Assembly: GCF_001886715.1 (NCBI RefSeq)
Contig: NZ_CP018082.1
Coordinates: 6,696,001 to 6,760,000, forward strand
Length of the DNA stretch: 64,000 nt
Reading direction: 5' to 3'
DNA from: Nocardia mangyaensis
GTDB lineage: Bacteria > Actinomycetota > Actinomycetes > Mycobacteriales > Mycobacteriaceae
Shown: positions 33,332-57,360 of the stretch, in pieces
How positions within the stretch are numbered: the stretch's first letter is position 1
Layout: each line of letters begins with the position of its first letter
Made by a program: the position numbers and the translations under genes
Notes under the pieces: model-generated
What the model saw: the letters and a program-made list of their open reading frames with translations, nothing else
What the model was told of the DNA's origin: nothing
The model's database searches: none

Positions 33332-35656
33332 CTACTCCGCCGAGGCCGCTTCGGCTTCGGCAGCCAGTGCCCGCCGACGCACTCGGCGCGCGGCGGCGAC
33401 CATGTTGCGCAGTGACGGCTCGAGCTGCCAGTAGTGGCGGGTCTTGAGGCCGCCATCCGGGTTGGCCCACAGACGTTGCGGGGTCACGGCGTTGGCGGCC
33501 TGGGTGAGGAGCTCGTCGAACTCGTCGATGTCGGGGATGCGGGCCGAGCGGCTCTCGTAGACACCGGGGCCGACGCCGTGGCTGAGACCGTGGCCGCTCG
33601 CGACGTCCTCGGTGAGCGCCTCGATGACCCACTCGATCGAGCGGGTCGCCACGATCGCGGTGACATCGGCATCGAGCTGATCGATCGCGTCGACCACCTC
33701 GGTGCGACCGGAGTAGCCGATGTGGGTGTGGATCTGGGTGTCGGCGCGCACACCGGAGGTGGCCAGCTTGAACGCGGCGACCGCCCAGCGCAGGTACTCC
33801 TCGCGTCCGTGCGGACGCGAGGGCAGCAGCTCGCGGATGGCGGGTTCGTCGACCTGGATGATCGCGATACCGGCCTTCTCCAGGTCGACCACCTCGTCGC
33901 GGATGGCCAGCGCCACCTGGTCGGCGGTCTCGTAGAGCGGCTGGTCCTGGCGCACGAAGGAGCGGGCCAGCATGGTGACCGGTCCGGTGACCATGCCCTT
34001 CACCGGCCGGTCGGTCAGCGACTGCGCGTAGCTGGTCCACTCGACCGACATCGGCGCCGGACGCGAGACATCGCCGTAGACGACCGGCGGTCGCACACAG
34101 CGTGATCCGTACACCTGCACCCAGCCGAAGCGGGTGGTGGCGAAGCCGTCGAGCTGCTCGGCGAAGTACTGGATCATGTCGTTGCGCTCGTGCTCACCGT
34201 GCACGAACACATCGAGGCCGATGTCCTCCTGCAGCCGGATCGTCGCCTCGATCTCGGCCTCGACCAGTTTGCGGTAGTCCTGCTCGGACAGCCGCCCCGA
34301 GGCCACCTCGTGACGGGCCTGCCGCAGCTTGCCGCTCTGCGGGAACGAACCCAGCGTGGTGGCGGGCACCACCGGCAGGTTCAGCCGTTCCTGCTGCGCG
34401 GCACGGCGCACCACGTACGGTTCGCGTTCACGCATGTCCGGGGTCACCGCGTACACCCGCTGCCGCACCGCGTGCTTCTGCTTGAAGTGCACCTCGGTGG
34501 GCCGCTTGCGCCAGTTCTCCGACGGGCCCTCGGTGAGCGCCTTGGCCAGCGAGACCACCTCGCCCACCTTCTGCTTGGCGAAGGCGAGCCGGTCGGCGAC
34601 ATTGCCCTCGATGTCGTACTCGGCGAGCACGTCATAGGGCACGTGCAACAGCGTGGTGCCGGTGGACACGACCAGGTCGGGGCAGACCTCGGCGATCGAG
34701 TTGAGGTAGTTCAACGTCACGTAGCGGTCGGCGCGCCAGACATTGGTGCCGCTGATGACACCGGCGTAGATCCGCTTGCGCTTGATCCCCGGGATCGCGG
34801 CCAGCTCCTCCGGCGTCATCCGGTAGGCGGACAGATCCAGCCCGATCGCCTCGACATTGCTCGCGGCCAGGATCCGCAGCGCCTCACCGAAATCGCCGTA
34901 CTGCCCGGTGACCAGGATGCGCGGACGCAGCGGCGCCTTCGACAGCGTCTGGTAGGCCTTCTCGAACGCGGCCAGTTCGGCGGGCGAGCGCTCACCGGTG
35001 AAGCAGGGCTCGTCGAGCTGGACACAGGTCGAGCCGCGCTTGGCCAGCAGCTCGAACAGCTCCTCGTAGAACGGCAGCAGCTGGTCGAGCAGGCTCAGCG
35101 TGTCGAACTCGGCCTCGCCGGGCACGTGCCCCGCCTTCGACAGCAGCAGCAGCGACACCGGACCCAGCACCACCGGACGCAGTTCGATCCCGCGCTCCAT
35201 CGCCCGGTCCCACTCGTCGAGCAGGGCCTCGGGATGCAGCGAGAACGTGGTGTCGGCGTCGAGTTCGGGCTGGCGGTAGTGGTAGTTGGTGCCGAAGAAG
35301 CGCACCAGCTCCAGCGGCGGCAGATCCGGGTTGCCGCGCGCCATCAGGAAGTAGAAGTCCAGCGGGTCCAGACCCTCCTGGTACTCGGCGAACCGTGACG
35401 GGACCGCGCCGAAGAGCAGCGCGTTGTCGAGCACGTGGTCGTAGAAGGAGAAGGTGTTGCCGGGAACCTGGGTGAGTCCGGTCGCGGCCAGCTCGTTGAA
35501 CTGACGCTCCTGGATGTCGCGGCCGACCGCGAGCAGCTCCTCGCGCTCGAGCGATCCGCGCCAATACGCCTCGAGCGCACGCTTGAGCTCGCGGTGCGGA
35601 CCGACTCTCGGATAGCCGAGAACACTCGACCCGAATCCATCGGTGACGTTGACCAT
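33332..35656 (-). CDS. metE: MetE-like protein (cobalamin-independent methionine synthase fold) with ablated zinc site
   Basis: A 774-residue two-barrel MetE-like protein of full length with strongly conserved scaffold: YPRVGPHRELKRA at the start, TTLGSFPQSGKLRQAR, DVFVHGEHERNDM, YGSRCVRPP and IQVDEPAIRELLP. The catalytic zinc site is not conserved. Only His645 remains (IHTHIGYSG); Cys643, Glu665 and Cys726 of E. coli MetE align with Gly647, Val669 (TAIVATRS) and Gly735 (NPDGGLKTR), and the YDIHSP histidine aligns with Arg703. Without these ligands homocysteine thiol activation is not expected, so the name describes homology only. Start ATG 35656 follows GGAAGGG. No cobalamin riboswitch is seen upstream. 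Confidence 0.9.
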   Translation of the reverse strand: MVNVTDGFGSSVLGYPRVGPHRELKRALEAYWRGSLEREELLAVGRDIQERQFNELAATGLTQVPGNTFSFYDHVLDNALLFGAVPSRFAEYQEGLDPLDFYFLMARGNPDLPPLELVRFFGTNYHYRQPELDADTTFSLHPEALLDEWDRAMERGIELRPVVLGPVSLLLLSKAGHVPGEAEFDTLSLLDQLLPFYEELFELLAKRGSTCVQLDEPCFTGERSPAELAAFEKAYQTLSKAPLRPRILVTGQYGDFGEALRILAASNVEAIGLDLSAYRMTPEELAAIPGIKRKRIYAGVISGTNVWRADRYVTLNYLNSIAEVCPDLVVSTGTTLLHVPYDVLAEYDIEGNVADRLAFAKQKVGEVVSLAKALTEGPSENWRKRPTEVHFKQKHAVRQRVYAVTPDMREREPYVVRRAAQQERLNLPVVPATTLGSFPQSGKLRQARHEVASGRLSEQDYRKLVEAEIEATIRLQEDIGLDVFVHGEHERNDMIQYFAEQLDGFATTRFGWVQVYGSRCVRPPVVYGDVSRPAPMSVEWTSYAQSLTDRPVKGMVTGPVTMLARSFVRQDQPLYETADQVALAIRDEVVDLEKAGIAIIQVDEPAIRELLPSRPHGREEYLRWAVAAFKLATSGVRADTQIHTHIGYSGRTEVVDAIDQLDADVTAIVATRSIEWVIEALTEDVASGHGLSHGVGPGVYESRSARIPDIDEFDELLTQAANAVTPQRLWANPDGGLKTRHYWQLEPSLRNMVAAARRVRRRALAAEAEAASAE

Positions 35657-35789
35657 GACCGGGACATCCCTTCCATCACCTGCTCGGGACCAACCAGTGC
35701 CAGTGGTCCACCGAGCAACGCTGCGCTCGCGATAATTCAGCCGCCCCGAATCCCCGGACCGGCACTATGCAGCTTAGGCGCTGACCTCG

Positions 35790-36095: not shown

Positions 36096-36962
36096 CTAGT
36101 ACTGGTAGAAACCAGCGCCCGTCTTCTTGCCGAGCAGGCCGGCTTCGACCATGCGCATCAGCAGCGGCGGCGCCGAGTACAGCGGCTCCTTGAACTCCGA
36201 GTACATCGAGTCCGCGATCGACTTCACCGTATCGAGCCCGACCAGGTCGGTCAGCGCCAGCGGGCCCATCGGGTGAGCACAGCCGAGCACCATGGCCTTG
36301 TCGACGTCTTCCTTGGTGGCGAAGCCCGACTCGACCATCCGGATGGCCGAGAGCAGGTACGGCACCAGCAGCGCGTTGACCACGAAACCGGAGCGGTCGG
36401 CCGAACGAACGACCTGCTTGCCCAGGATGTCGGCGGCGAACTGCTCGGCACGCTTGGCGACCGGCTCGCTGGTCTTGAGCGTGGTGACCAGCTCGACCAG
36501 CGGCAGCACCGGCACCGGGTTGAAGAAGTGCAGGCCCACCACGCGCTCGGGGTTCGCGGTGGCGACGGCGATCTTCATGATCGGGATGGATGAGGTGTTG
36601 GAGGCGAGCACAGCGTCGGGGTCGGTGACGACCTTGTCCAGCTCGCTGAAGATGCCGGTCTTGACCTCTTCGTTCTCGACAACGGCCTCGACCACCAGCT
36701 GACGGTCGGCGAAGTCGCTGAGATCGGAGGTGAAGCGCAGCCGCCAGGCGGCCTGCTCCCGCTCGCGCTCGGTGATCTTGCCGCTGCTCACGCCACGATC
36801 CAGCGAGCGCAGGATGCGCGCGCGGCCCGCAGCGGCGAGTTCACGGGTGGTCTCGTAGACGAGGACGTCGACGTGCGCGCGTGCGCACACTTCGGCGATA
36901 CCAGCGCCCATCTGTCCCGCGCCGATGATTCCGACGCGCTGGATCTTCTCGCTGCTGCTCAC
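36096..36962 (-). CDS. fadB2: 3-hydroxybutyryl-CoA dehydrogenase
   Basis: A 288-residue NAD(P)-dependent 3-hydroxyacyl-CoA dehydrogenase. Cofactor motif GIIGAGQMGAGIAEV, active-site Ser/His/Glu region SNTSSIPI and GLHFFNPVPVLPLVELV, and Asn in DRSGFVVNALLVPYLL are present, and the C terminus LGKKTGAGFYQY is typical. It interconverts acetoacetyl-CoA and 3-hydroxybutyryl-CoA in lipid metabolism. The GTG start at 36962 follows AGGAG. Adjacent to aceA as in M. tuberculosis icl1-fadB2. Confidence 0.95.
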   Translation of the reverse strand: MSSSEKIQRVGIIGAGQMGAGIAEVCARAHVDVLVYETTRELAAAGRARILRSLDRGVSSGKITEREREQAAWRLRFTSDLSDFADRQLVVEAVVENEEVKTGIFSELDKVVTDPDAVLASNTSSIPIMKIAVATANPERVVGLHFFNPVPVLPLVELVTTLKTSEPVAKRAEQFAADILGKQVVRSADRSGFVVNALLVPYLLSAIRMVESGFATKEDVDKAMVLGCAHPMGPLALTDLVGLDTVKSIADSMYSEFKEPLYSAPPLLMRMVEAGLLGKKTGAGFYQY

Positions 36963-37127: not shown

Positions 37128-38417
37128 TCAGTGAAACTGACCCTCTTCGGTGGAGCCCTTCAGGGCCGCCGTCGAGGTGTTCGGGTCCACGGTGGTGGCG
37201 ATGGTGTCGAAGTAGCCGGCACCGACCTCACGCTGGTGCTTGATGGCGGTGAAGCCACGCTCGGCGGCAGCCTTGAACTCGCGCTCCTGCAGGTCGACGA
37301 ACGCGGTCATGCCCTCGCGAGCGTAGCCGTGCGCCAGGTCGAACATGCCGTAGTTGAGCGAGTGGAAGCCGGCCAGGGTGATGAACTGGAACTTGAAGCC
37401 CATCGCGCCGAGCTCACGCTGGAACTTCGCGATGGTCGCGTCGTCCAGGTGCGCCTTCCAGTTGAACGAAGGCGAGCAGTTGTAGGCCAGCAGCTGGTCC
37501 GGGAACTCGCTGCGCACCGACTCGGCGAACTTGCGCGCGACCTCGAGATCCGGCACGCCGGTCTCCATCCAGATGAGGTCGGCGTAGGGGGCGTAGGCCT
37601 TGGCACGCGCGATGCAGGGCTCGATGCCGTTCTTCACACCGAAGAAGCCCTCGGCGGTACGGGTGCCGTCCAGGAACTCACGGTCACGCTCGTCCACGTC
37701 GGTGGTGAGCAGGGTGGCGGCCTCGGCGTCGGTGCGGGCGATGATCACCGACGGCACGTCGGCGACGTCGGCCGCGAGACGCGCGGAGGTCAGGGTGCGG
37801 ATGTGCTGCTGGGTGGGGATCAGCACCTTGCCACCGAGGTGGCCGCACTTCTTCTCCGAGGCCAGCTGGTCCTCCCAGTGGACACCGGCGGCACCGGCGG
37901 CGATCATCGCCTTCTGCAGCTCGTAGGCGTTCAGCGCGCCACCGAAGCCGGCCTCGGCGTCGGCCACGATCGGGGCCAGCCAGTTCTTGACGGAGTCGTC
38001 GCCCTCGACCTTGGAGATCTCGTCGGCGCGCAGCAGCGCGTTGTTGATGCGACGGACCACCGACGGGACCGAGTTCGCCGGGTACAGCGACTGGTCGGGG
38101 TAGGTGTGGCCGGACAGGTTCGCGTCACCGGCGACCTGCCAGCCCGACAGGTAGATGGCCTTCAGACCGGCGCGGACCTGCTGCACGGCCTGGTTGCCGG
38201 TGAGGGCACCGAGGGAGTTGATGTAGTCCTCGTTGTTGACGAGGTCCCAGAGGATCTCGGCACCACGGCGCGCGAGGGTGTGCTCCTCGACAACGTTGCC
38301 CTGCAGCTTGGTGACCTGCTCGGCGGTGTAGTTGCGGGTAATACCCTTCCAACGCGGGTTGGTGTCCCAATCCTGCTGGATTTCCGCAGCGGTCTTCGGG
38401 GTGCCGGGGATCGACAT
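37128..38417 (-). CDS. aceA: isocitrate lyase
   Basis: A 429-residue isocitrate lyase that splits isocitrate into succinate and glyoxylate for growth on fatty acids or acetate. The catalytic loop is [13 protein letters not shown], the metal/substrate region [15 protein letters not shown], and [13 protein letters not shown] the closing segment. The length fits the short actinobacterial Icl1 class. ATG 38417 follows a purine-rich GAGGAAGTGGAG. RamB-like TTTGC motifs lie about 225 bases upstream. Confidence 0.97.
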
Positions 38418-38638
38418 CTCTGACTCCACTTCCTCGGTGTGGTCGGTGCTCCGCGCCGCGCGGCCAGTGAAACATCCGGCGTCTGAACGCCTTCGGTTGC
38501 ACGGCTCGTACTGCTGGAGCAATTTGCAGGCTTGCTAGGACTAGCTAGGGCCCAAGGGGTGTACTTCCACACGATGGCACACCAGGAAATAGCCGTCTAC
38601 CTGTTGCTTGTGTGAATCTCAGCTAGGTTTGCCGCCGC

Positions 38639-43796: not shown

Positions 43797-44696
43797 TCAG
43801 ACCGGGTGGACCTTGTGCCAGTGTTCGGCGATGTCGATGCGGCGGGTGATCCAGACCCGGTCGTGGGTCTGGATGTGGTCGAGGAAGCGTTCCAGGGCTG
43901 CGGTGCGGGCGGGGCGACCGGCCAGGCGGCAGTGCAGTCCGATCGAGAGCATCTTCGGACTACCCTCGGCGCCTTCGCGATACAACACGTCGAAGGCGTC
44001 GCGCAGGTGGGCGTAGAACTCCTCGCCGTTGGCGAAACCCGCGGGCGAGGCGAAACGCATGTCGTTGGTGTCGAGGGTGTAGGGGACAACGAGGTGGTCG
44101 TGGCCGTTCACCTCGGTCCAGTACGGCAGATCGTCGGCGTAGGAATCGGAGTCGTAGACGAAACCGCCGTGTTCGACCACCAATTCGCGAGTGTTCGGCG
44201 AGTCGCGCCCGGTGTACCAGCCGAGCGGGGCCGAACCGGTGAGCTCGGTGAGGACGCGGACCGCCTCGGCCATGTCGGCGCGCTCGGTATCGCGATCAGT
44301 GAGCTGATAGGACTGCCACCGCAGTCCGTGACTGGCGATCTCGTGCCCGAGCTCCCGAAAAGCAGCCACCGCTTCGGGATTACGCTGCATGGCCCGCGCC
44401 ACCGCGAAGATGGTGAGCGGCAGTCCGCGCCGTTCGAAGACGCGAAGTACCCGCCACAGCCCGGCGCGCGAACCGTATTCGTAGAGCGATTCCATGCTCA
44501 TGTGCCGGTTCGGGAACGCCTCGGCCGGCGTCATCTCCGAGAGGAAGGTCTCCGAATGCGGCGACCCGTCGAGGACGTTGTTCTCCCCGCCCTCTTCGTA
44601 ATTCAACACGAACTGCACGGCGATCTGCGCCTCGTCGGGCCATTGCGGGTCGGGCGGATTCGGGCCGTAGCCGACGAAGTCGCGAATATCGCTCAC
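43797..44696 (-). CDS. puuE: allantoinase PuuE (polysaccharide-deacetylase fold)
   Basis: A 299-residue NodB-fold hydrolase of the cofactor-independent allantoinase class that opens allantoin to allantoate. Features are VQFVLNYEEGGENN at the N terminus, the NodB-like ELGHEIASHGLRW, and GWYTGRDSPNTRELV. GTG 44696 overlaps the stop of allantoicase (GTGA). Last gene of the purine operon. Confidence 0.9.
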   Translation of the reverse strand: MSDIRDFVGYGPNPPDPQWPDEAQIAVQFVLNYEEGGENNVLDGSPHSETFLSEMTPAEAFPNRHMSMESLYEYGSRAGLWRVLRVFERRGLPLTIFAVARAMQRNPEAVAAFRELGHEIASHGLRWQSYQLTDRDTERADMAEAVRVLTELTGSAPLGWYTGRDSPNTRELVVEHGGFVYDSDSYADDLPYWTEVNGHDHLVVPYTLDTNDMRFASPAGFANGEEFYAHLRDAFDVLYREGAEGSPKMLSIGLHCRLAGRPARTAALERFLDHIQTHDRVWITRRIDIAEHWHKVHPV

Positions 44697-45670
44697 GCGC
44701 CCAGCTCCCCGAACAGCCGCAACCGGGCGAGCCCGCCGTCGGGATAGATGTCGAGGCGCACTTCCTCGACCGAGGCGGCGGCCGGGGCGAGGGCGAAGCG
44801 GTGCCGGGTGTCGGGGAGCAGCTCGGTCCGTGGCAGCAGTTCGACTTCGGTGCCGTCGTTGGTGAATCCAGTGAGCGAGGCCGCACCGGGACTGTTGCCG
44901 AGGAAGCAGGAGGTGTCGATCTCGGCGAGCCGGATCGCGCCGGGACCGGCCAATCGGATACGCACCCAGTCATTTCCGTCGTCACGGCGGCGCGCGGTCT
45001 CCCAACCGTCGCCCATCACCCGCGCCTGACCGGGGTAGAGCAGCTGGTTGGGCGAGCTGTAGAAGCGGTTGGAGCAGTCGAGTACGAGCGCGCCGTTCTC
45101 CAGCGCGGCGAGGTCGAGCGGGCCGAGGCCGAGCAGAGTCGGGTCGGGGCGGCCCTCGCCGTGCACCCGTAGCCGGGCCACCCCGCCGTCGGGGTGCATG
45201 GTGAGTTTCACGTGCGTCCAGCGCTCGTCGCTGTCGATGGTGAACGGATTGCGGCTGTCACCATCGACTTCGACGCGGTCGAGCAGGGTCACCCAGTCGG
45301 TGCGCGCGGCGATGTCCTCGGCGGGCGGGTAACCCGCCACGACCAGCGCCGACAGCGAGACCGCCGGCGGATAGTTGCCCTTGAACCACGCCGTGTCCAC
45401 CACGACACCACGGATCACGCCGGGCACGCCGAGCCGGACGATCGCGGTGTCGTCACCGGGCTTGCCCCGGTGCCGCCGAGTCTCCCACCCGTCGTAGACC
45501 TGGCCCTTGTGCCCGAAAGTCGACGGCTGGTACTCGGCCGGACCGGGGTTGACCAGATTCTCCTTCTCGGCGAAGAACTCGTCGTTCGCCCAGATCACCG
45601 AACCGCCGAGCGGTCGAGCCGCCAGGTCCGGTAGGAGCGTGAAGTCTTCGCTGCCGTGGTGTTCGCTCAC
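44693..45670 (-). CDS. alc: allantoicase
   Basis: A 325-residue allantoicase with two repeated jelly-roll halves; each contains a DGWETRRHRG / DGWETARRRDD motif and a VDTAWFKGNYP / IDTSCFLGNSPG motif. It hydrolyses allantoate to ureidoglycolate and urea. GTG 45670 follows GAGGAGACAC. It overlaps puuE by four bases. Confidence 0.93.
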   Translation of the reverse strand: MSEHHGSEDFTLLPDLAARPLGGSVIWANDEFFAEKENLVNPGPAEYQPSTFGHKGQVYDGWETRRHRGKPGDDTAIVRLGVPGVIRGVVVDTAWFKGNYPPAVSLSALVVAGYPPAEDIAARTDWVTLLDRVEVDGDSRNPFTIDSDERWTHVKLTMHPDGGVARLRVHGEGRPDPTLLGLGPLDLAALENGALVLDCSNRFYSSPNQLLYPGQARVMGDGWETARRRDDGNDWVRIRLAGPGAIRLAEIDTSCFLGNSPGAASLTGFTNDGTEVELLPRTELLPDTRHRFALAPAAASVEEVRLDIYPDGGLARLRLFGELGA

Positions 45671-45828
45671 CGTGTCTCCTCGTGCCTCGGGCACTCCGCT
45701 CGATCGGCGGACGCCCCTCTGTGTGCTGCGCTGCGCGTGTCGCCCCGCGTCGGGCCAGGTCCGGTGCTGTCACGTTCTCCTGTACCGCCGGCATCGCCGA
45801 GATACGGCCGCAAACCCGCCGAGGTGTG

Positions 45829-47061
45829 TCATCGGGATTCCTGCGGCGGGGTGCGTCGTGCCGCCAGCGCGGCCAGGACATCGGCGGTGAGCTCCGGTGC
45901 GCGGTCGAGCAATTCGGACTCCGAGGTCGCCGCGCAGTGCAGTCCGCGCAGCACGGTGGTCGACAGCGCCTCGGCCGTGGCCGGTTCGTCGACGACGCCG
46001 CCGCAGCGCCGGTCCAGATATGCCTGCAACCGGGGCACGGCCACGGCGGTGGCGGTGCGGAAGAAGTCGTAGGTGGCCAGCCAGCGGGTGATCAGGTGGC
46101 CGGGGTGCATGTCCCAGCCCTGGTAGTAGCCCCGGCGCAGCGCGCGGTCGACCAGGCGGTGGTGGTTGGCGAAGGCAGCCTCGGGATCGGCGTCGGGCAC
46201 GATCTGGGTGGAGCCGTCGCAGATCCACACCCCGGTCTGCGCGGCGGCGACCTGCATGACGGACTTGGCGTGATCGGCGGCCGGGTGATCGAGCGCCTGG
46301 TCGGTGGCGGCGATGCCGCAGGCGGCGGTGTAGTCGTAGGTGCCGAAATGCAGTGCGCTGCACCGTCCGGCGGCGAGAGAGATCATCCGGGCGATCGGCG
46401 CGGTGCCGTCGGGGGCGATGATCGCTTGCGGGCTCTCGATCTGCAGTTCGAAGCGCAGGGTGTGATCGGGCAGGCCGTGCCCGCGTTCGAGCCCAGAGCA
46501 CAGGTCGACGATCGCCGAAACCTGTTCGGCAGCGCGGATCTTCGGCACCGTGAACACGAATCCGGGCAGCACGCCGCCCGCACCGTCGAGCACCAGCTCC
46601 AGGGTGCGCAGCGCGCGCCTGCGCTCACCCGCGGCCAGCCCCTTGGTCCGCACCCCGAACGAGGCGGGGGCGCCGGGCCGATCCGCCCAGCTCGCCAACG
46701 CCTTGCCCGCCGCGATCGCGGCGGCGTCCTCCTCCTCGTCGGAGCGGAAGCCGTAGCCGTCCTCGAAGTCGATCCGCAGATCCTGGATCGGCTGGTCGGT
46801 CAGCCTGCGCCGGACCGCGGGCAACGAACCGGTGGCATCGAGGCCGACCAGGAAGTCCGCGTGCCGGTGCAGCAGTTCGAGGGCGGCCGCGCCCCAGTCC
46901 GCGGGGGTGTCGGCGGTGGCGCGGTCGGCGGCCACATAGGCGGTGTGCACCGGCTGGACCCGGTCGCCCTGGCCCGGATATCGCGCCCGCAGGTCGGCGT
47001 CGACCGAGTCGAGCACCGCGTCGATCCGGGCGCGGATGTGCTCGGGAAGATGGGTGCTCAC
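45829..47061 (-). CDS. DUF6986, HpcH/HpaI aldolase-like protein in the purine operon
   Basis: A 410-residue protein of the phosphoenolpyruvate/pyruvate-domain (HpcH/citrate lyase/malate synthase-like) superfamily. [45 protein letters not shown] and [13 protein letters not shown] carry the likely acidic metal ligands. GTG 47061 overlaps the xdh stop (GTGA), so it is an integral member of the operon between xanthine dehydrogenase and allantoicase. No ureidoglycolate lyase gene is seen, so action on ureidoglycolate or glyoxylate is a testable guess. Confidence 0.78.
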
Positions 47062-50000
47062 CCGGCGGTTCCTTCCTTGACGGTCCGCCACACACGGTCG
47101 GCGGTCATCGGTAGTCGGTCCGGTCGGACGCCGACGGCGTCGCGGATCGCGTTCGCCAGGGCCGGCGCCACCGGGTTGTACGGGGACTCGCTCATCGATT
47201 TGGCGCCCAGTGGTCCCAGTTCGTCACTGGTTTCGGCGAAATAGACCTCGGTGCGAGGCAGATCCGCGAACTGCGGAAGGTGATAGTGGCGCAAAGTCCT
47301 GGTGGTCACCACGCCCTGGTCGGTCCGCAGGTCCTCGTAGAGCGCGGTGCCGATCGCCTGGGCGACCCCGCCCTCGATCTGGCCGCGCAGCTGCACCGGG
47401 TTGACCACGGTGCCCGCGTCGGCGACCTGGATCGACTGCAGGATGCGCACGATGCCGGTGCACGGCTGCACGGCCACCCGGAAGGCGTGCACGTTGAAAC
47501 TCACCGAGCGCGGGGTGCCCGCGTGGGTGCCGTGGGCGACGAGCGGACCGTCGGCGAGCAGCGCAGCGGCGGCGAGCAGGTCGTCGCCACAGCGCACCCC
47601 GCCCGCCTCGAGCACGCATTCCCGTTCGGGATGTCCGCTGACCTTGGCCGCCCTGGCCAGCAGCATCGCGTGCAGTTCCAGGGCCGCCGCGTAGGAGGCC
47701 TTGCCCGCGACCATGGTGCCGGTGGAGCCGAAGGCGCCGGTGTCGTGGCCCACCACATCGGTATCGGACTGACGGATCACGATGCGGTCGGCGGTGGTGG
47801 CCAACGCCGTCGCGGCCAGCTGGACGTGCACAGTGGTGGTGCCGTTGCCGAATTCGGCGGTGCCGACACCGATTTCGTAGCGACCATCGGCCAGCACCCT
47901 GGCGGTGGCGTCGGCATGGTGTCCGCGCGGCGGCACGGTAGCGATCATCGCCACGGCCATCCCCTCGCCCAGCTGCCAGTCCGGGCCGGGCACCGCGGCA
48001 CCGTTGCCGCGGCGCAGGGCCTGCTGGGCGGTGTCGAGGCACTGGTCGAGGCCGTAACTGCCGAAGGTCAGATCGCTCTCGTCGACCTCGGCGCCGGTGA
48101 ACTGGTCGCCCGGGATCACCACATTGCGCCTGCGGAATTCGAACGGGTCGATGTCGAGTTCGCGGGCGAGTTCGTCGATGGCGGACTCGACGCCGAAGAT
48201 CACCTGCCCCAGGCCGTAGCCGCGGAAGGCACCGGAGGGAACGTTGTTGGTGTACACCGCCTGTGCGTCGACGCGCTTGTTCGGGCAGCGGTAGACGGCC
48301 ACCGATTCGCCGACGGAGTGGAACAGCACGCCCGCGCTGTGGTTGCCGTAGGCGCCCGCGTCGGCGAGGACGTCCACCGCCAACGCGGTGAGCAGGCCGT
48401 TCGCGTCGGCCGCCGCGGTCACCGCCACTCGCATCGGGTGACGAACGGTGGCGGAGGTGAATTCGTCGGTACGGGTGAACTCGTACTGCACGGGGTGCCC
48501 GGTCCGCAGCACGGCCAGCGCGATCAGGTCCTCGGCCAGCATCTCCTGCTTGGCCCCGAATCCGCCACCGACGCGAGTGGCGAAGACCCGCACCCGATCT
48601 CGCCCGAGTCCGAAGAGATGGCACAGCTCCTCGCGCACCAGGAACGGCACCTGAGTGCTCGACCGGACCACGAGTCTGCCCGCGTCGTCGAGCCAGCCGA
48701 TCCCGCCGTGCGTCTCCAGGTGCACATGTTGCACACGCGGCGAATTCCACACGCCTCGAACGATTTTCGCTGCACCCTCGATGCCTGCGCCGACATCGCC
48801 GACACCGCCGTGGATCTCGGCGATCAGATTGTGGTCGCGGTCGGCGATCCGCGCCGAATCCGGCTTGTCGGCATGCAGTTTCGGCGCATCGTCGGCCAAC
48901 GCCGCTTCCGGTTCGAACACCGCGGGCAGCACCTCGTATTCCACCCGCAACGCCCGCACACCGGCCCGCGCCGCGTCGAGAGTCTCGCCCACCACGGCCG
49001 CCACCCGCTGCCCCGCGAACCGCACGGTGCTGTCGAGCACGAAGGTGTCGTCCGGATCGTCCTCGCGCAGTTCGTGCCGCGCCGTCGAGAACGCTGTCGC
49101 GGGTGCGTCCCCATGCGTCAACACCGCCCGCACTCCCGGAACAGCCGCTGCCGCGGTCACATCGATGGCGACGATCCGCGCGTGTGGATGCGGGCTGGCC
49201 AGCACCGCGAGATGCCACGGCGCCACCGGCGGCGCCTGCTCCCCCGACCCCGGCACCACATCGAGGGTGAACGCCTCCCCACCCCGCACGATCCGCTCCG
49301 CCCCAGGAGCCCGTACCCCGTCCCCGACCTGTCCGGCGCGATGCCGACCCCGCATGCCGCCGACCTCGGCGTTCACTACGGGCACTGCCTCGGCCCCGGC
49401 ACCGCTCTCGGACTCCGCCGGGCTCGCCTGCACGTCGCTCGCAAGCCCCGAGCCGTGACCACCCATTCGCGCCTCGACAGCGTGCGCCGCGGCCTCCCCT
49501 ACGTCGGGGCCTTCCGCCGCGGAAACAGTGGTGGTTTCCCGCTCCCGACTCGCACCGACGTAGGAGTCGACGGCGGGCCCCGCGGCGACGACCGCCGCAC
49601 CGGTGGCGGCGTCGACCTGCGAATTCACGGGGAGAGCAGTCGCCTCGTCAGTGAAGCGCCCCTCCACGTCGCCAGCGGACGGACCAGGCCGCTCGGCCAC
49701 CGTTTGCGGCGAATCGGCAGGTCCGGCGGTTGTGCACAGGGATGCACAGGGTGTGGTGAGGGCGTCGGCGATGGCACGGTAGCCCGTGCAGCGGCAGAGG
49801 TTTCCCTTCAGCAGTTCAGCGCGCTCGGTGTCGGTGACGGCCTCCGCGCTCAGGGGTTCGGTGTCGGCGGTCTCCGCCTGACCGTCTTCCGCCGGACTCG
49901 GCGAGTCGCCGCTGACAGGAGCCGAGCGGGCCGCCGCGAGACCGGTCGCGGTGACCACCATCCCGGCGGTACAGAACCCGCACTGGAATCCGGCGCGCTC

Positions 50001-50264
50001 GACGAAGCTGCGCTGCACCGAATTCGGGCCGTCGGTATCGGCGAGGCCGGCGGCTGTCGTCACGGTACGGTTCGCGGCGCGGTGCGCGGGGATGAGGCAG
50101 GAGTGGACCGGTTCGCCGTCGAGCAGGACCGAGCAGGCACCACAGTCGCCCGAGTCACAGCCCTTCTTGACAGCGAGTTCGCCCTGGTCACGCAGCAGGG
50201 TGCGCAGGCACTGGCCGGGGCGCGCGGTCGCCTCGACCGCGTGTCCGTCGACTTCCAGTCTCAT
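47058..50264 (-). CDS. xdhA: xanthine dehydrogenase, fused [2Fe-2S] and molybdenum subunits
   Basis: A 1068-residue fusion. Residues 1-170 form the iron-sulfur domain: first cluster Cys36, 41, 44, 56 ([16 protein letters not shown]), second cluster Cys95, 98, 157, 159 ([20 protein letters not shown]). A 35-residue insert (about 113-147) splits the second-cluster domain and a disordered Ala/Glu/Ser linker (about 175-310) leads to the molybdopterin domain, with [20 protein letters not shown] and [16 protein letters not shown]. It oxidises hypoxanthine and xanthine to urate. FAD is on a separate chain encoded upstream. Confidence 0.9.
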
Positions 50265-50286
50265 GAGCCACCTCCTCGGGCCGTGG

Positions 50287-51132
50287 TCAGGGTGTCGCCC
50301 GTAGCTCGGCGGCCACCTCGGCTGCCAGCAGCCCGGTCACGTGCCGACGCCAGTCCGGCGCGCCGTGCGGATCGTCGAACCACAGCGACGGCTCGACCTC
50401 GGACAGCGCGTCGGCGAGCTCGAATTCCCTCGGTACAGAATCGAAGTCGAGTACCACCGGACGCACCGTGGCGGCGGTGACGGTGATCGCGCACCGGCCG
50501 TCGGCCGTCCGCCTGCCCATCACCACCGCACCGGAGCGACCGAGCGGGGCCAACGCGATCTTGCGAAAACTGGTGTGCGCCATCAGGCTCGCGGCGGGTA
50601 CCAGGAACGACCGCACCACCGCGCCCGCGGCCAGCACGTTCTCCCCGGGCCCGGTCACGAACTCGCGCAGCGGAATCCGCCGCTCGCCGCCCCCGCGCGG
50701 CCAGACCACCGCGACCGCGTCGAGCGCGACCAACGCGCCGAGCACCGCACCTGCCGGCAGTGAAAGACAGACGTTCCCGCCGACGGTGGCCGTGCGCCAG
50801 ATCTTGTGCGAGGCCAGCAGGGCCCGGCACGCCGGTGCGAACAGCGCGGTGCCGGGCCAATCCGGACGCAGCGTCGCCGTGCCGAGTTCCCGGCCTGGAC
50901 GCGCACCGGCGAATTCGGCCAGCGTGCAGGTCGCCGCGATCTCCAGCCCGGCCGGGGTCGCGGTGAGCGACGGCCAGCCCAGCGTGGTGATGTCGACGAG
51001 CCGGTCGAGATGATCGTGCGGCTCGGAGTACAGGAAGGTGCCCCCGGCCAGTACCGCGCTGCCCGGCCCGACCAGGGCCAGATCGGCGCGTTCGCGGGCG
51101 AGAACCACCTCTCGAACAGTGTCCAGATCCAC
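50287..51132 (-). CDS. xdhB: xanthine dehydrogenase FAD-binding subunit
   Basis: A 281-residue CO-dehydrogenase-flavoprotein-like subunit. FAD contacts are in [26 protein letters not shown] and [15 protein letters not shown]; the C-terminal domain follows [16 protein letters not shown]. It passes electrons from the iron-sulfur domain to NAD or another acceptor. GTG 51132 is the start; the fused large subunit begins 22 bp downstream. Confidence 0.9.
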
Positions 51133-51225
51133 GTTGCACCTCGCTTACCTCACCGGCCACAGTAGGGGCCGGGAGTTGCCGCGATGTTGCGCGACACTCG
51201 CGACAGATTGCGCTGCGGTTAATCC

Positions 51226-51233
51226 GGTATACC
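51226..51233. promoter_or_regulatory. GGTATACC palindrome in the xdh promoter region
   Basis: The 155-bp region between the deaminase and xdhB genes contains GGTATACC in an AT-rich patch (GGTTAATCCGGTATACCACT). Read on the minus strand it offers a TATACC -10 about 95 bases before xdhB and could also be a GntR-type site. Confidence 0.3.
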
Positions 51234-51287
51234 ACTCCAGTGTGCGCCGATCTCGGCGAAACCGCAGCTCAGCACGCACGGCGACGA

Positions 51288-52658
51288 TCACGCACCGGCC
51301 AGCAGGGCGGCCTGCGCCTGGGCCACCTCGGCTCCGACCATCGCCTCGTCGACCGTCGTCACGACACCGTCGCGCACCACCTCGCACCCGTTCACCCACA
51401 GCCCGGCCAGCGGCGGTGCCGACCCGAGCACCAAGGCCACCACCGGGTCCTCGATCCCCGCATGCGCGGGCGTATCGAGCCGCCACAGCGCCAGATCGGC
51501 CAGCTTGCCCGGCTCGATCGACCCGATCTCGGCCTCGCGGCCGAGCACCCGCGCGCCGCCCATGGTCGCCAGTTCCAGCGCGGTCCGCACGGTCATCGCC
51601 CGCGGCCCCCCGACGGCTCGCGCGTACAGCAGCGCGTTGCGCGGTTCCTCGATCATCGAACTCGACTCATTGCTCGCCGCGCCGTCGACCCCGAGCCCCA
51701 CCGGTACCCCCGCCGCCACCAGATCGGCGGTCCGCGCGATCCCCGCGCCCAGCCGGCCGTTGGAGGTCGGGCAGTGCGCCACCCCAGTGCCGGTGCGCGC
51801 CATCGCGGCGATCGCCGGATCGTCGAGGTGCACGGCGTGGGCGTACCAGACGTCGTCGCCGAGCCAGCCCAGCTGTTCCATGTACTGCGCGGGCGTGCAA
51901 CCGAAGGTGCGCAGGCAGAAGTCCTGCTCGTCGAGGGTTTCGGCGAGGTGGGTGTGCAGCCGGACCCCGGCGGTCCTGGCCAGGGTCGCGGACTCGCGCA
52001 TCAGTTCGGCGGTCACCGAGAACGGCGAGCACGGCGCGAGCGCGATCCGCACCATGGCGTCGAAGGACGGGTCGTGCCACTCGGCGATGGCCCTGGCGCT
52101 CGCGGTGAGGATGTCGTCGATCGACTCGACCACCTCGTCCGGCGGCAGCCCGCCCTGGCTCTGTCCCAGGTCCATCGACCCGCGCGCCGGATGGAAGCGC
52201 AGCCCCACCGTGGCCGCCGCGCCGATCTCGGCGCCGAGCAGATCGCCGCCGCCGCGCGGGAACACGTAGTGGTGATCCGAGGACGTGGTGCAGCCGCTGC
52301 GGGCCAGCGAGACCAGCGCACCGGTCGCCGCCGTGCGCACCGACTTCTCATCGATGCGCGCCCACACCGGATACAGCGTGGTCAGCCATTCGAAGAGCGT
52401 GTTGTCGGCAGCCAGGCCGCGGGTGATCCACTGGTAGAGGTGGTGGTGGGTGTTGACCAGACCGGGCGTGAGCACACAGCCGCGTCCGTCGATCCGGGCG
52501 ACCTCGGGCCCGAGGCCCGGTGCCTTGCCCGCACCGACGGCATCGATCCGGTTGCCGCGCACCGTGACCCAGCCCTCGCGATACTCGGTACCCGCCGCGT
52601 CGACGGTCACCACCGCGCACCCGTCGATCAGCAGGTCCGGCGTGCTCACGGCTGCCAT
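51288..52658 (-). CDS. amidohydrolase, probable 8-oxoguanine deaminase
   Basis: A 456-residue amidohydrolase of the guanine/8-oxoguanine deaminase class. Zinc and catalytic residues are in NTHHHLYQWITRGL, RLHTHLAET, WYAHAVHLD and GLGVDGAASNES; SSDHHYVFP is typical of 8-oxoguanine deaminases. It would yield urate directly from 8-oxoguanine. ATG 52658 overlaps the urate oxidase end by 13 bases; GTG 52649 in GTGA overlap is an alternative start. Confidence 0.85.
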   Translation of the reverse strand: MAAVSTPDLLIDGCAVVTVDAAGTEYREGWVTVRGNRIDAVGAGKAPGLGPEVARIDGRGCVLTPGLVNTHHHLYQWITRGLAADNTLFEWLTTLYPVWARIDEKSVRTAATGALVSLARSGCTTSSDHHYVFPRGGGDLLGAEIGAAATVGLRFHPARGSMDLGQSQGGLPPDEVVESIDDILTASARAIAEWHDPSFDAMVRIALAPCSPFSVTAELMRESATLARTAGVRLHTHLAETLDEQDFCLRTFGCTPAQYMEQLGWLGDDVWYAHAVHLDDPAIAAMARTGTGVAHCPTSNGRLGAGIARTADLVAAGVPVGLGVDGAASNESSSMIEEPRNALLYARAVGGPRAMTVRTALELATMGGARVLGREAEIGSIEPGKLADLALWRLDTPAHAGIEDPVVALVLGSAPPLAGLWVNGCEVVRDGVVTTVDEAMVGAEVAQAQAALLAGA

Positions 52659-53551
52659 GCGATGCCCGCCTCGGGTGCGTCGGCGCGGGCCAGGGTGGCG
52701 TGGATCGAGCCGTAGGGCCGGTCCGCCGCCCAGAACACCTCGTTGACGTTCCCGAGCCCGAACTGCGCGAGGTCGTAGTCGAAGTGGTGTTTGTTCGGCG
52801 CCGACAACCGGATCTCGGCGAGGACCGGGAACCGTTCCAGCGCGGCGGTGCCCATCGCGTGCAGCGTCTGTTGCAGCGCCTTGGAGTAGGTGGTCGCGAA
52901 CAGTTCGAGCAGGGTGGCGCGGATGCCGTCGTAGACCTCGTCCCAGTCGAATCCGCTGGTCTCGGCGAAGCGCCACTGCACGATCAGCGAGGTGGCGAGC
53001 ACGCGATCGTGGGTCGGGGCCAGGGTCGTGTACTCGTCGGTCAGGAAATCGGCGAACTCCGAGCCGGTCGACTTGAGCAGCACCAGGTCCTTGATCCCGC
53101 CGATCACCCAGCTCTGCTGCTCGGCACCGGTGCCCGCCACGGTCACCGCGGCGGTGCGCACCTCGGGACCCTGCCGGACCCAGGTGTGGTCGTGTTCGGT
53201 GCCGTCGATCGAGACACGCTGCCAACCATAGGAATCCACGTCGATGCGTGCGCTCGACACCGGGTCGACCGTGTCGACGAAGTGCTTCGCCAACGCGATC
53301 GCGTAGTCCTCCACGGTGTCGAGCCCCGGCTTCTTCGAGAAGATGAAGGCGGTGTGCTTCTGGGTGTCGGTGGGCAGGACGTGACGCTGGTCACCCTCGG
53401 TGTAGGCCGCCTCGAAATCCCCGCGCAGGGTGGTCGAGACGTTCACGTCGCGGATCTCGTGGCGCGCGTTCTCCTTGTGGAAGCGCACGACCCGGTTCTC
53501 GGCTTTGCCGTATCGGTGGTCGGTCAACACGATCGGACCGGTCAATGCCAT
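52646..53551 (-). CDS. uox: urate oxidase (factor-independent)
   Basis: A 301-residue uricase converting urate to 5-hydroxyisourate and H2O2. Catalytic Lys, Thr and His are in RYGKAENRVVRFHK, LPTDTQKHTAFIF and SAPNKHHFDYDL. It occupies the expected place between the urate-forming and hydroxyisourate-processing genes. ATG 53551 is 3 bases from the uraH stop. Confidence 0.96.
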   Translation of the reverse strand: MALTGPIVLTDHRYGKAENRVVRFHKENARHEIRDVNVSTTLRGDFEAAYTEGDQRHVLPTDTQKHTAFIFSKKPGLDTVEDYAIALAKHFVDTVDPVSSARIDVDSYGWQRVSIDGTEHDHTWVRQGPEVRTAAVTVAGTGAEQQSWVIGGIKDLVLLKSTGSEFADFLTDEYTTLAPTHDRVLATSLIVQWRFAETSGFDWDEVYDGIRATLLELFATTYSKALQQTLHAMGTAALERFPVLAEIRLSAPNKHHFDYDLAQFGLGNVNEVFWAADRPYGSIHATLARADAPEAGIAWQP

Positions 53552-53554
53552 CGG

Positions 53555-53872
53555 TCAGCTCCCTCGGTAGGTGGAATAGGCGAACGGCGACAGCAGCAGC
53601 GGCACATGCAGATGCGGCTGCTCACCCACCGTGAACGCGACGCAGACCTCCGGGTAGAAGGTCTCGACGCCCTGCGCCGCGAAATAGGCCCCGGTATCGA
53701 AGAACAGGCGGTAGTCGCCCGGATTCAAACCGGCGGCGAGCTCTTTCACCCGCCCGTCGGCATCGGTGAGCGCCTCGGTGAGCCGCTGCTCACCGCGCGT
53801 GAGCCACACCGCGACCCCCTCGGCGGGCACCCCGCGCACCGCGTCGAGCACATGCGTGCTCAGCCCGGTCAC
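53555..53872 (-). CDS. uraH: 5-hydroxyisourate hydrolase
   Basis: A 105-residue transthyretin-like protein with catalytic His in LSTHVLD, the His in PHLHVPLLLSPF and the diagnostic C-terminal tetrapeptide YRGS. It hydrolyses 5-hydroxyisourate to OHCU. GTG 53872 overlaps the upstream decarboxylase stop (GTGA). Confidence 0.96.
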   Translation of the reverse strand: MTGLSTHVLDAVRGVPAEGVAVWLTRGEQRLTEALTDADGRVKELAAGLNPGDYRLFFDTGAYFAAQGVETFYPEVCVAFTVGEQPHLHVPLLLSPFAYSTYRGS

Positions 53873-54363
53873 GACGCGTCCACCAGTCGCGCCAGGCGCA
53901 GTCGGTTGATCTTCGCCAATTCGGTTCGCATGACCTGCCTTTCGGTCGGAGCATCGTTGTCGAGCCGGGCCCGCAGCAGCGCCAGCAACTCCTCGCCGCC
54001 GCGCCCCGCCGCGCACACCAGGTAGATGTGGCCGAACTTCGCCTCGTAGGCGCGGTTGCCCTCGGCCAGTGCCGAGCGCACCTGGGCACCCGAGACACCG
54101 GACTGCTCGCGGGCCGAAGCCGCCGAGGTCGGGCGGTCACCGATGCGCGGGTGACCGGCCAGCGCCTCGTCGATATCGGCGTCGTCGAGCGCCGCCAGCG
54201 CGGCGTCGGCGGCATCGAACAGCGAATCCGCGGTGTCATAGGGGCGGGCGGCCACCACCGCCCGCGCCCAGCGTGGGGCGGAGCAACAGGCAAGCAATGC
54301 CGACTCTGCGGCCGGCGCCGCAAGATCGTTGAAACCCGCGAGGCCGATCGCTTCGCTCTGCAT
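53869..54363 (-). CDS. uraD: 2-oxo-4-hydroxy-4-carboxy-5-ureidoimidazoline (OHCU) decarboxylase
   Basis: A 164-residue decarboxylase giving S-allantoin. The catalytic His is in GHPRIGDRP, Glu in SAREQSGV, and YEAKFGHIYLVCAAGR is a family signature. ATG 54363 starts MQSEAIGLAG; the large open frame upstream is not coding. It is first gene of the left-going group, divergent from mocA. The 126-bp divergent region contains GTAAT (54451-54455) and ATTAC (54475-54479) as a weak dyad. Confidence 0.93.
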   Translation of the reverse strand: MQSEAIGLAGFNDLAAPAAESALLACCSAPRWARAVVAARPYDTADSLFDAADAALAALDDADIDEALAGHPRIGDRPTSAASAREQSGVSGAQVRSALAEGNRAYEAKFGHIYLVCAAGRGGEELLALLRARLDNDAPTERQVMRTELAKINRLRLARLVDAS

Positions 54364-54489
54364 CGGTCCAGCATCTCCCCATCCCCACCTGGCCGCCACC
54401 GATGTGCAGTCCGTCACGTCGGCGTGTCGTCGCCGAGGGGCTGCGCGGCTGTAATCGACCGGCAACATTGCGTCATTACCTTTGCTCAC

Positions 54490-55071
54490 ATGTCCCCGAT
54501 CGAGCCGTGCGCGGGAATCGTCCTCGCCGCGGGCGCGGGTACCCGCTACGGCAAACCCAAGGCACTCGCCGAGAACGGCGCCTGGTTGCGCGCGGCGGTC
54601 ACCGCCCTGCGCGACGGCGGCTGCGCGCCGGTGATCGTGATGCTCGGCGCCACCGGACCAGATCCAGCGAACGTCGATCTGCCAGCCGACACCGAGTGGC
54701 GCTGGGTCGCCGACTGGGCGACCGGGCTGAGCGCGACCGTGCGCGCGGGCTTGCGCGCGGCCGCCGAGGCGAACACCGAATACGCGGCGTTCCTGCCCGT
54801 CGACCTCCCCGATATCGGTGCCGATGTCGTCGCCAGGGTGCTGGCCGCGGCGCGCGCGAGTGACAGTGGATTGGCTCGTGCTGTGTTTCACAGCACACCC
54901 GGTCATCCCGCTGTGATGAAGAACAAGCACTGGGAAGCAATTTCGGCGACGGCAGTAGGTGATACAGGGGGCGGTTCCTATTTGGGCACCCGACAGGATA
55001 TGGTGTGCGTCACGTGCGACGACTTGGCGACAGGGACCGATCGCGATTTCCCGGAAGTCGCCGCACAGTGA
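54490..55071 (+). CDS. MobA/MocA-like molybdenum cofactor nucleotidyltransferase
   Basis: A 193-residue NTP transferase beginning AGIVLAAGAGTRYGKPKAL, with LPVDLPDIGADVV and HPAVMKNKHWEA. Homologues (MocA, XdhC partners) attach CMP to molybdopterin for xanthine-dehydrogenase-family enzymes. It precedes xdhC by 14 bp and is divergent from the catabolic genes, consistent with maturing the Xdh cofactor. Confidence 0.87.
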   Translation: MSPIEPCAGIVLAAGAGTRYGKPKALAENGAWLRAAVTALRDGGCAPVIVMLGATGPDPANVDLPADTEWRWVADWATGLSATVRAGLRAAAEANTEYAAFLPVDLPDIGADVVARVLAAARASDSGLARAVFHSTPGHPAVMKNKHWEAISATAVGDTGGGSYLGTRQDMVCVTCDDLATGTDRDFPEVAAQ

Positions 55072-55085
55072 TCGGAGTTTGAGAT

Positions 55086-56102
55086 ATGCGCGATATCGTC
55101 GATGACCTTCTGCGAGTGTGGCATTCGGGCCGCACGGGTGGCCTCGCCACCGTGGTCCGCACCATCGGCACCAACGCGCTGCCGATCGGTTCGGCAATGC
55201 TCGTCACCCCCAACGGCGGGGTCTTCGGATCCATCGCGTCGGGCCGGTTGGAAGAGACCGTCTACGCGGCCGCGCTGGAAGCCGCGCGCACCGGCGTCCG
55301 GCAATTACGCCGCTACAGCATGATCACCGGCATGGAGTCCACCTCCGACGACGGCACCCTCGTCGACATCTTCGTCGAGCCGTTCTCCTGCCGCGATTTC
55401 CCCGAGTTCCCCACCATCGCCGCCGACATCCAGGCCCATCGCCGGGTCACCGTGTTCACCGTGGTGTGGAATCAGGACCCCGATGTGATCGGCCAGCATC
55501 TGGTCACCGATCGCAAGCACGCCACCGAACTCGTCGCGCTGCCGGAGTCGGATCTGTTCGTCGCCTCCTACTGCCCGCCGCCGCGGCTGCTGATCTTCGG
55601 CGCCAACGCCTATGCCGCCACCCTGGCCGCGCAGGCCCGGATGATCGGGTACCAGGTCAGCATCTGCGATTCGCGCCCCGAATTCGCCGACCCGGCCTCT
55701 TTCCCCGGCGTCGAGGTGGTCGTGGACTGGCCGCACCGCTACCTCAACACCCTCGCGGCCGCGGGCGAGATCGACTCCGACACCGGCATCGTCGTCCTCG
55801 CCAACGAGCCCCGCTTCGAGATCCCCCTGCTCACCGTCGCCCTGCGCCTGCCCGAACTGGGCTACCTCGCCGCCCTCGGCTCCCCCGCCGACCAGGCCCG
55901 TCGCCTCGACGATCTGCGCGCGGGCGGCTTCGACGAGCCCACCCTGGCCCGCCTGCACGTGCCCGCCGGCCTCGAATCCGGGCCGCGAACCCCCGCCGAA
56001 ACCGCCGTCTTCATCACCGCCGACTTCCTCGCCTCCCGCGCGGGCATGCGCCTGGCCGCCCACCGCGATTTCGGTTCCTCCACGGTCGGCATGGCGATCT
56101 GA
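55086..56102 (+). CDS. xdhC: XdhC-family molybdenum cofactor insertion/sulfuration chaperone
   Basis: A 338-residue XdhC/CoxI protein. The N-terminal CoxI domain has ATVVRTIGTNALPIGSAMLV and GSIASGRLEETV, and the C-terminal Rossmann domain has RLLIFGANAYAATLA and CDSRPEFADPASFP. These proteins bind sulfurated Moco and load xanthine dehydrogenase. In tandem with the nucleotidyltransferase. A hairpin follows. Confidence 0.9.
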   Translation: MRDIVDDLLRVWHSGRTGGLATVVRTIGTNALPIGSAMLVTPNGGVFGSIASGRLEETVYAAALEAARTGVRQLRRYSMITGMESTSDDGTLVDIFVEPFSCRDFPEFPTIAADIQAHRRVTVFTVVWNQDPDVIGQHLVTDRKHATELVALPESDLFVASYCPPPRLLIFGANAYAATLAAQARMIGYQVSICDSRPEFADPASFPGVEVVVDWPHRYLNTLAAAGEIDSDTGIVVLANEPRFEIPLLTVALRLPELGYLAALGSPADQARRLDDLRAGGFDEPTLARLHVPAGLESGPRTPAETAVFITADFLASRAGMRLAAHRDFGSSTVGMAI

Positions 56103-56170
56103 CGGTGCCCGTCACCTGCGTTTTCAGCGACTGTTGAGCGTATGGATCGAGCTCTGCAGCTACTGACCGA

Positions 56171-56212
56171 GGCCCTGGTGGCGCCCACTGTCGTGGGTGG
56201 GCAACCAGGGCC
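56171..56212. terminator. bidirectional hairpin between xdhC and the ABC transporter
   Basis: GGCCCTGGT (56171-56179) and ACCAGGGCC (56204-56212) enclose a further GCCCAC/GTGGG stem. It sits between two convergent gene ends and can serve both strands. Confidence 0.6.
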
Positions 56213-56242
56213 AGGTGATCGATAGGTCCGGCGAACGAACCC

Positions 56243-57307: not shown

Positions 57308-57360
57308 ACGCCGAATGTAGATTCAGCGCGTTTCGTCCACTTTGCGTCGACGTTCCGCTG

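Follow-up and report, generated by a model that had tools for sequence, protein, structure and literature searches.

A full-length paralogue of MetE lacking the catalytic zinc site in Nocardia, Rhodococcus and related genera

The cobalamin-independent methionine synthase MetE (EC 2.1.1.14) has been described from structures of the T. maritima, A. thaliana, N. crassa, C. albicans and S. mutans proteins, and the roles assigned to individual residues in this work are taken from the study of the T. maritima enzyme (PMC539065). Relatives with altered metal sites have been described among the core methionine synthases MesA-MesD: according to PMC7857596, zinc-less MesB-like proteins in Chloroflexales carry FSHG, YCDQ or YREQ in place of HCEC, and the MesC protein of MSBL-1 has a glycine at the position of the glutamate ligand. 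In open-licence PMC full text we found no literature on a full-length MetE that lacks zinc ligands, nor any tying the protein described here to isocitrate lyase (aceA).

The gene examined here is encoded within a 64,000-nucleotide stretch of the Nocardia mangyaensis genome (7.31 Mb, single contig), which we refer to as the window. We use ZL as a label for its protein and for the clade to which that protein belongs (Table 1). The original prediction described a MetE homologue in an intact 774-codon frame, with a conserved scaffold and conserved GSFPQS and DEPA loops, in which nearly the whole zinc site had been lost by substitution. The frame is indeed intact: it starts with ATG, contains zero internal stops, and has a GC content of 0.71, 0.44 and 0.91 at the first, second and third codon positions, which is typical of a real gene here. 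The scaffold is present as well, because both Pfam domains, Meth_synt_1 (residues 10-324) and Meth_synt_2 (residues 431-757), are recognized and GSFPQ and DEPA are kept; together with structural alignments, these domains identify the two barrels of MetE in ZL. The predicted structure is a moderate model (pTM 0.54) that is silent on side chains.

Table 1. Features of the ZL locus and their positions in the window
Feature	Position	Strand
ZL (774 aa), MetE paralogue of full length, catalytic zinc site missing	33332..35656	-
Gly735 codon GGC, at zinc-ligand Cys (E. coli 726, T. maritima 704)	33452..33454	-
Arg703 codon CGC, at DIHSP His (T. maritima His672, one proton-donor candidate)	33548..33550	-
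Val669 codon GTG, at zinc-ligand Glu (E. coli 665, T. maritima 642)	33650..33652	-
Gly647 codon GGC, at zinc-ligand Cys (E. coli 643, T. maritima 620)	33716..33718	-
His645 codon, sole retained zinc ligand (E. coli 641, T. maritima 618)	33722..33724	-
Arg565 codon, at pterin-stacking Trp (T. maritima Trp539)	33962..33964	-
fadB2-type 3-hydroxybutyryl-CoA dehydrogenase, conserved upstream neighbour	36096..36962	-
aceA, isocitrate lyase, second gene upstream, conserved	37128..38429	-

In order to compare functional residues, we aligned 71 distinct ZL proteins with 42 distinct canonical MetE proteins; duplicates had been removed from 80 and 43 sequences, respectively, and 19 sequences were skipped (ZL L220, L228 and L242, and 16 canonical ones). 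All functional residues compared, namely those for zinc, homocysteine, the pterin and the folate tail together with the proton-donor candidates, are present in 42 of 42 canonical proteins. Among the 71 ZL proteins (T. maritima numbering), one of the four zinc ligands His, Cys, Glu and Cys is retained in every case, and this is His618. The position of Cys620 holds Gly (30), Thr (27), Ala (4), Asn (3), Pro (3) or Ser (3) in a tally of the six commonest residues, which do not include Cys, with one further row that differs; that of Glu642 holds Val in 68 proteins and Ile in three, and that of Cys704 holds Gly in 70 and Phe in one. The histidine of the DIHSP motif (His672) is replaced by Arg in 68 proteins and by Lys in one, and is kept in two. 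Both the alignment and the codons thus agree with the claims that only His645 is left of the zinc ligands and that Arg703 stands where MetE has the DIHSP histidine. Judged by its sequence, ZL would be unable to use the known zinc-thiolate mechanism of MetE. The two proteins with the DIHSP histidine (L222 and L223) have lost three zinc ligands and are possible intermediates. Two other variants, NPDFGLK with Phe at the Gly735 position in L238 (G795) and AVPDGGLK in L243 (G793), are both without the zinc cysteine.

The pterin-stacking tryptophan, on which the original prediction was silent, is lost too: the Trp539 position is Arg in 64 proteins, Phe in four, Leu in two, Gly in one and Trp in none of the 71. 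At the Lys104 position Arg occurs 53 times, Ala once and Lys 17 times, and Glu583 is retained in 63 proteins; taken as a whole, the pterin site is not that of MetE. The remaining proton-donor candidates His111 and Asp467 are kept in 51 and 71 proteins, respectively. The residues that anchor the amino-acid head of homocysteine (Ser411, Glu462, Asp577 and Met468; Ser437, Glu488, Asp603 and Met494 in the window) and those that form the basic groove for the glutamate tail of folate (Arg15, Lys18, Arg493 and Arg496; Arg22, Lys25, Arg519 and Arg522 in the window) are each present in 71 of 71. The retention of these residues and the replacement of the others suggest that the anchoring sites are whole and that the chemistry between them has been rebuilt. 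In a comparison of 83 ZL rows with an earlier, smaller canonical set of 28, 35 positions were fixed differently (at least 85% in both groups); the narrow start pattern used for this comparison as a whole had lost 34 sequences. Sequencing error as a source of the altered motifs is ruled out, since among the 120 nearest listed proteins, of 6,587 passing, THxxY without the cysteine, YESRSAR in place of YDIHSP and NPDGGLK in place of NPDCGLK are each found in 120 of 120.

A ZL match was obtained in 98 of 98 sampled Nocardia genomes, nearly full length in 97 and as a contig-edge fragment in one, a count that rests on bit scores with residues read in some of the genomes. The named proteins among the 120 nearest listed are likewise nearly all from Nocardia, one being labelled Streptomyces gardneri. 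A species-level genome collection yielded 150 relatives, and the best 80 of the 150 are all ZL; they come from Nocardia, Rhodococcus, Skermania, Antrihabitans, Aldersonia and Smaragdicoccus, with R. oryzae, R. spelaei, R. tukisamuensis, R. triatomae, R. maanshanensis, R. tibetensis, R. spongiicola, R. xishaensis, R. aetherivorans, R. ruber, R. zopfii and others among the Rhodococcus. Within the family, the exact pattern NPDGGLKTR occurs in 162 of 401 genomes and in 20 of 30 sampled genera, and at least one ZL sequence was read in 17 of those 20. Among 30 pattern-negative genomes of the family, ZL is present in six (G795, G852, G784, G785, G813 and G793), which add three further genera, among others. 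The clade is therefore found in at least 20 of the 30 sampled genera, including Nocardia and Rhodococcus. The pattern is absent in the sampled genomes of g2 and g6, taken as Mycobacterium and Corynebacterium, and is found in a minority of those of g3 and g4. Across the phylum it was seen in three of 396 genomes, all three of the window's genus; as an exact pattern misses variants, a ZL variant may exist outside the family. An earlier survey of 298 genomes of the order, which placed ZL in nine genomes of three genera, scored three candidates per genome and included few family members, and is superseded by the survey of 401.

In a tree of the 71 ZL and 42 canonical proteins, ZL forms one side of a single branch (SH-aLRT 100) with a stem of 0.78 changes per site and is placed outside the canonical MetE of the family; the tree was made by a quick method with a midpoint root, at which the program warns of long branches meeting. 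The substitutions thus define a clade, as it had been proposed to check. Values of dN/dS are 0.04-0.12 in six ZL pairs, compared with 0.13-0.18 in three canonical pairs, and in 44 of the 45 pairs that ten genomes form, the two ZL proteins resemble each other more closely than the two canonical MetE proteins do (means of 83.5 vs 78.4%). ZL is under strong purifying selection. The statement that the substitutions are not simple decay is well supported by the single clade, the low dN/dS and the 44 pairs, and we reject decay as an explanation. In one genome (L220, G959) the end of ZL lies in a separate 94-residue frame; either this copy was lost recently or the assembly is faulty here.

A search for a second, canonical metE and for metH, also proposed at the outset, was successful on both counts within the same genome. 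The canonical metE (G000:C1:4862615-4864858) carries THLCY, SIEAARS, YDIHSP and NPDCG, and is preceded by a cobalamin riboswitch; ZL, which is 49% identical to its product over residues 8-761, has none of these. The riboswitch was found upstream of canonical metE in 11 of 11 scanned loci (L002 and ten of g7 and g8) and upstream of ZL in none of 15 (the window and four others, then ten). ZL occurs without a full-length canonical metE being found in eight of 98 Nocardia genomes, in three of six and nine of 18 in two sister genera, g7 (the genus of R. oryzae) and g8, and in four of 26 in g324, ZL being present each time. The Nocardia figure derives from at most ten candidates scored per genome, carries more doubt in the case of G001, G004 and G075, and includes a genome (G032) that is only 85% complete. 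A metH gene is present in 27 of 27 genomes tested, including 20 of the 24 without canonical metE (the four of g324 lay outside this test), and therefore ZL is not kept as the only methionine route in the genomes tested.

The genomic neighborhood of ZL is conserved. The order aceA-fadB2-ZL on one strand is found in 42 of 43 loci judged, which comprise 20 of 21 (the middle gene was unrecognised in L054), 18 of 18 judged among 20 new loci, and four of four; one of the 18 has an extra 90-codon call within this order, and two of 25 rows (L220 and L227), having no ZL call, were left out. The gap before ZL ranges from 5 to 609 bases, and its length of 5-12 bases in five loci (L218, L219, L225, L263 and L264) suggests one transcript there. 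A divergent ramB homologue is encoded upstream in 15 of 23 judged rows and in four of four in a further set, that is, in many loci outside Nocardia; it does not adjoin aceA in the window. The one member scanned is RamB (NF038139, 835 bits vs 700), the regulator by which icl1 of M. tuberculosis is repressed on glucose (PMC3420887). In genomes with aceA but without ZL, fadB2 follows aceA in 14 of 16. In two of these (L291 and L292) a methyltransferase is next, and the one scanned belongs to the mycolic acid cyclopropane synthase family. A genomic region of N. cyriacigeorgica described as containing both metE and isocitrate lyase (PMC3751702) may be the same locus.

Several Rhodococcus and related loci have a strong hairpin between fadB2 and ZL, and there ZL may be expressed apart from aceA. 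In L232, L323, L056, L079, L089 and L078 the hairpins are of about -29 to -47 kcal/mol, with arms that seem by eye to co-vary between species; such an element could act as a terminator or attenuator uncoupling ZL from aceA-fadB2. When 20 regions upstream of Nocardia ZL are aligned, a recurring GGCATAAGCTGCA-like string, which may be a -10 promoter box, is visible by eye in about half of them; in the window it lies at about 35768-35780 on the minus strand. We also considered zinc sparing under Zur control, and found no Zur-like box upstream: the best matches to three 15-base consensus strings have at least four mismatches in 21 of 21 upstream regions.

Elsewhere in the window, positions 43797-59743 hold a purine-breakdown cluster in which Pfam identifies a polysaccharide-deacetylase type protein, allantoicase, uricase and an amidohydrolase, and in which further genes resemble, by a look at the sequence only, xanthine dehydrogenase, HIU hydrolase, OHCU decarboxylase and an ABC transporter. 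Inside this cluster lies a DUF6986 protein (45829-47061; 475 bits) with a weak HpcH/HpaI aldolase match; our guess is that it handles a C2 product such as glyoxylate.

A possible physiological role for ZL comes from published proteomics (PMC8557817) on Rhodococcus qingshengii IGTS8, cultured with glucose and either sulfate or dibenzothiophene. According to that report, a 'MetE' (IGTS8_peg5907) rises 190-273-fold with dibenzothiophene, a condition of sulfate starvation, is among the ten most abundant sulfur-proteome proteins under starvation, and contains only 2 Cys and 7 Met. Its authors interpret it as methionine synthase, and zinc is mentioned a single time in their main text, in the title of a reference. 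We take g324 to be the genus of R. qingshengii. ZL is present in all 26 of its genomes and a full-length canonical metE in 22. The canonical proteins have 4-5 Cys in 22 of 22, and the 17 ZL proteins read of the 26 have 1-3, two of them with exactly 2 Cys and 7 Met; for these counts the last ATG or GTG preceding a conserved motif was taken as the start, so that Met counts may err by one or two. Over the whole family Cys counts overlap (2-6 in ZL, 3-7 in canonical MetE), and no canonical protein counted has two. Given these counts, together with the published ones and the identity of g324, peg5907 is very probably ZL. Sparing of sulfur as the reason for the loss of cysteines was rejected, because over the clade Cys and Met together make up 1.63% of ZL and 1.62% of canonical MetE. 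A metE of R. qingshengii PM1, with the copy unspecified, is reported to rise under selenite stress along with cysK and metY (PMC13414329).

Our preferred reading, which we hold as tentative, is that ZL is an old, neofunctionalised MetE paralogue, an enzyme that acts on a folate and an amino acid without zinc, serves in sulfur starvation and differs from MetE in its acceptor or its chemistry. By its sequence it keeps the double barrel and the homocysteine and folate anchors around a rebuilt reaction centre; it would still unite a folate polyglutamate with an amino acid. Arg703 and His645 may replace the role of the metal; the acceptor would most likely be another sulfur-related amino acid, if the chemistry is not something other than methyl transfer to homocysteine. 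Published data and residue counts suggest that ZL would be the Rhodococcus 'MetE' whose level increases about 200-fold when sulfate is short. A more specific proposal, and a more doubtful one, is that ZL could be a metal-free folate-dependent one-carbon transferase with arginine in place of zinc, a principal sulfur-starvation enzyme of Rhodococcus, Nocardia and their relatives, hidden under the name of ordinary MetE both in databases and in proteomics. Counting against the preferred reading, ZL is absent by exact pattern from most sampled genomes of g3 and g4 though aceA-fadB2 is kept, and it is not obvious how the aceA-fadB2 neighborhood goes with a sulfur response in glucose-grown cells. Retention of the homocysteine and folate-tail residues is also in line with a real methionine synthase, and it is conceivable, if rather unlikely, that ZL is a zinc-free one in which Arg703 and His645 stabilise the homocysteine thiolate and which takes over in sulfur starvation. 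Both anchoring sites are retained in 71 of 71, ZL is the only full-length MetE in a number of genomes, and in the starved IGTS8 culture MetY also rises and CH3-THF-Glu3 declines over time (PMC8557817), all of which speaks for such an enzyme. However, three ligands, the DIHSP histidine (Arg in 68 of 71) and the pterin tryptophan have been lost together, mutagenesis of the E. coli enzyme, as cited in PMC539065, shows that the histidine and two cysteines bind zinc, none of the 27 metH-bearing genomes needs ZL for methionine, and the equal Cys and Met content removes sulfur sparing as a reason for the loss of cysteines.

A non-catalytic role, in which ZL is a pseudoenzyme that senses folate or an amino acid, or a partner that tunes sulfur or glyoxylate metabolism, we consider unlikely. 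The pattern of anchoring residues kept and reaction residues lost is consistent with it, as are the conserved aceA-fadB2 order and the divergent ramB in many loci outside Nocardia, but the substitutes have in turn become almost invariant (Arg703 and Val669 in 68 of 71, Gly735 in 70, Arg565 in 64), which suggests a new rather than an empty active site; additionally, a place among the ten most abundant proteins (PMC8557817) would be high for a sensor, if ZL is peg5907. Very improbable is a metalloenzyme whose site has been rebuilt from His645 and newly gained residues: His645 is invariant and His489, beside the homocysteine glutamate, is present in 57 of 71, but its position holds Val, Ala, Ile or Pro in the other 14, and the extra histidines of the GHGLSH segment are altered in L017 and L018, and the loop is shorter in L019 and L020. 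A new metal site formed by this inserted, unconserved loop was rejected on the same four sequences. That ZL is an ordinary zinc-type methionine synthase, as annotated, with irrelevant substitutions, is hardly credible. It passes NCBIfam NF003556 with 927.6 bits (cut-off 541), but fails the curated equivalog TIGR01371 (cut-off 929.95) with 862 bits, as do the four further ZL proteins scanned (859-901), whereas the canonical MetE of the same genome clears it with 1035, and three of the four zinc ligands are missing.

The link to sulfur starvation and the aceA-fadB2 neighborhood, like the loss of the pterin tryptophan, are additions to the original prediction. The database name of ZL is probably wrong: the label metE covers two genes in Nocardia and Rhodococcus whose products differ, and where the canonical copy has been lost, the remaining 'metE' lacks the zinc site. 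Methionine synthesis by ZL is nevertheless taken for granted in metabolic models and in the interpretation of at least one biodesulfurisation proteome. If active, it would show that a zinc-thiolate enzyme can be rebuilt without the metal; if inactive, it would be an abundant and conserved pseudoenzyme of sulfur stress.

Among known systems, ZL shares with MetE the full-length double barrel, an identity of 36-42% to the solved structures in structural alignments, and the homocysteine-head and folate-tail residues; unlike MetE, it has replaced the Cys, Glu and Cys of the zinc site, the DIHSP histidine and the pterin tryptophan. Uroporphyrinogen decarboxylase, with a single barrel, a different substrate and 11-16% identity to ZL, is more distant. 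The MesB-like and MesC proteins are, as described, a precedent for MetE relatives without zinc ligands. The Mes core proteins lack the folate-binding N-terminal part, whereas ZL, with 774 aa and both domains, does not belong with MesA-MesD: it is full length, comes from another phylum and keeps the folate-tail residues.
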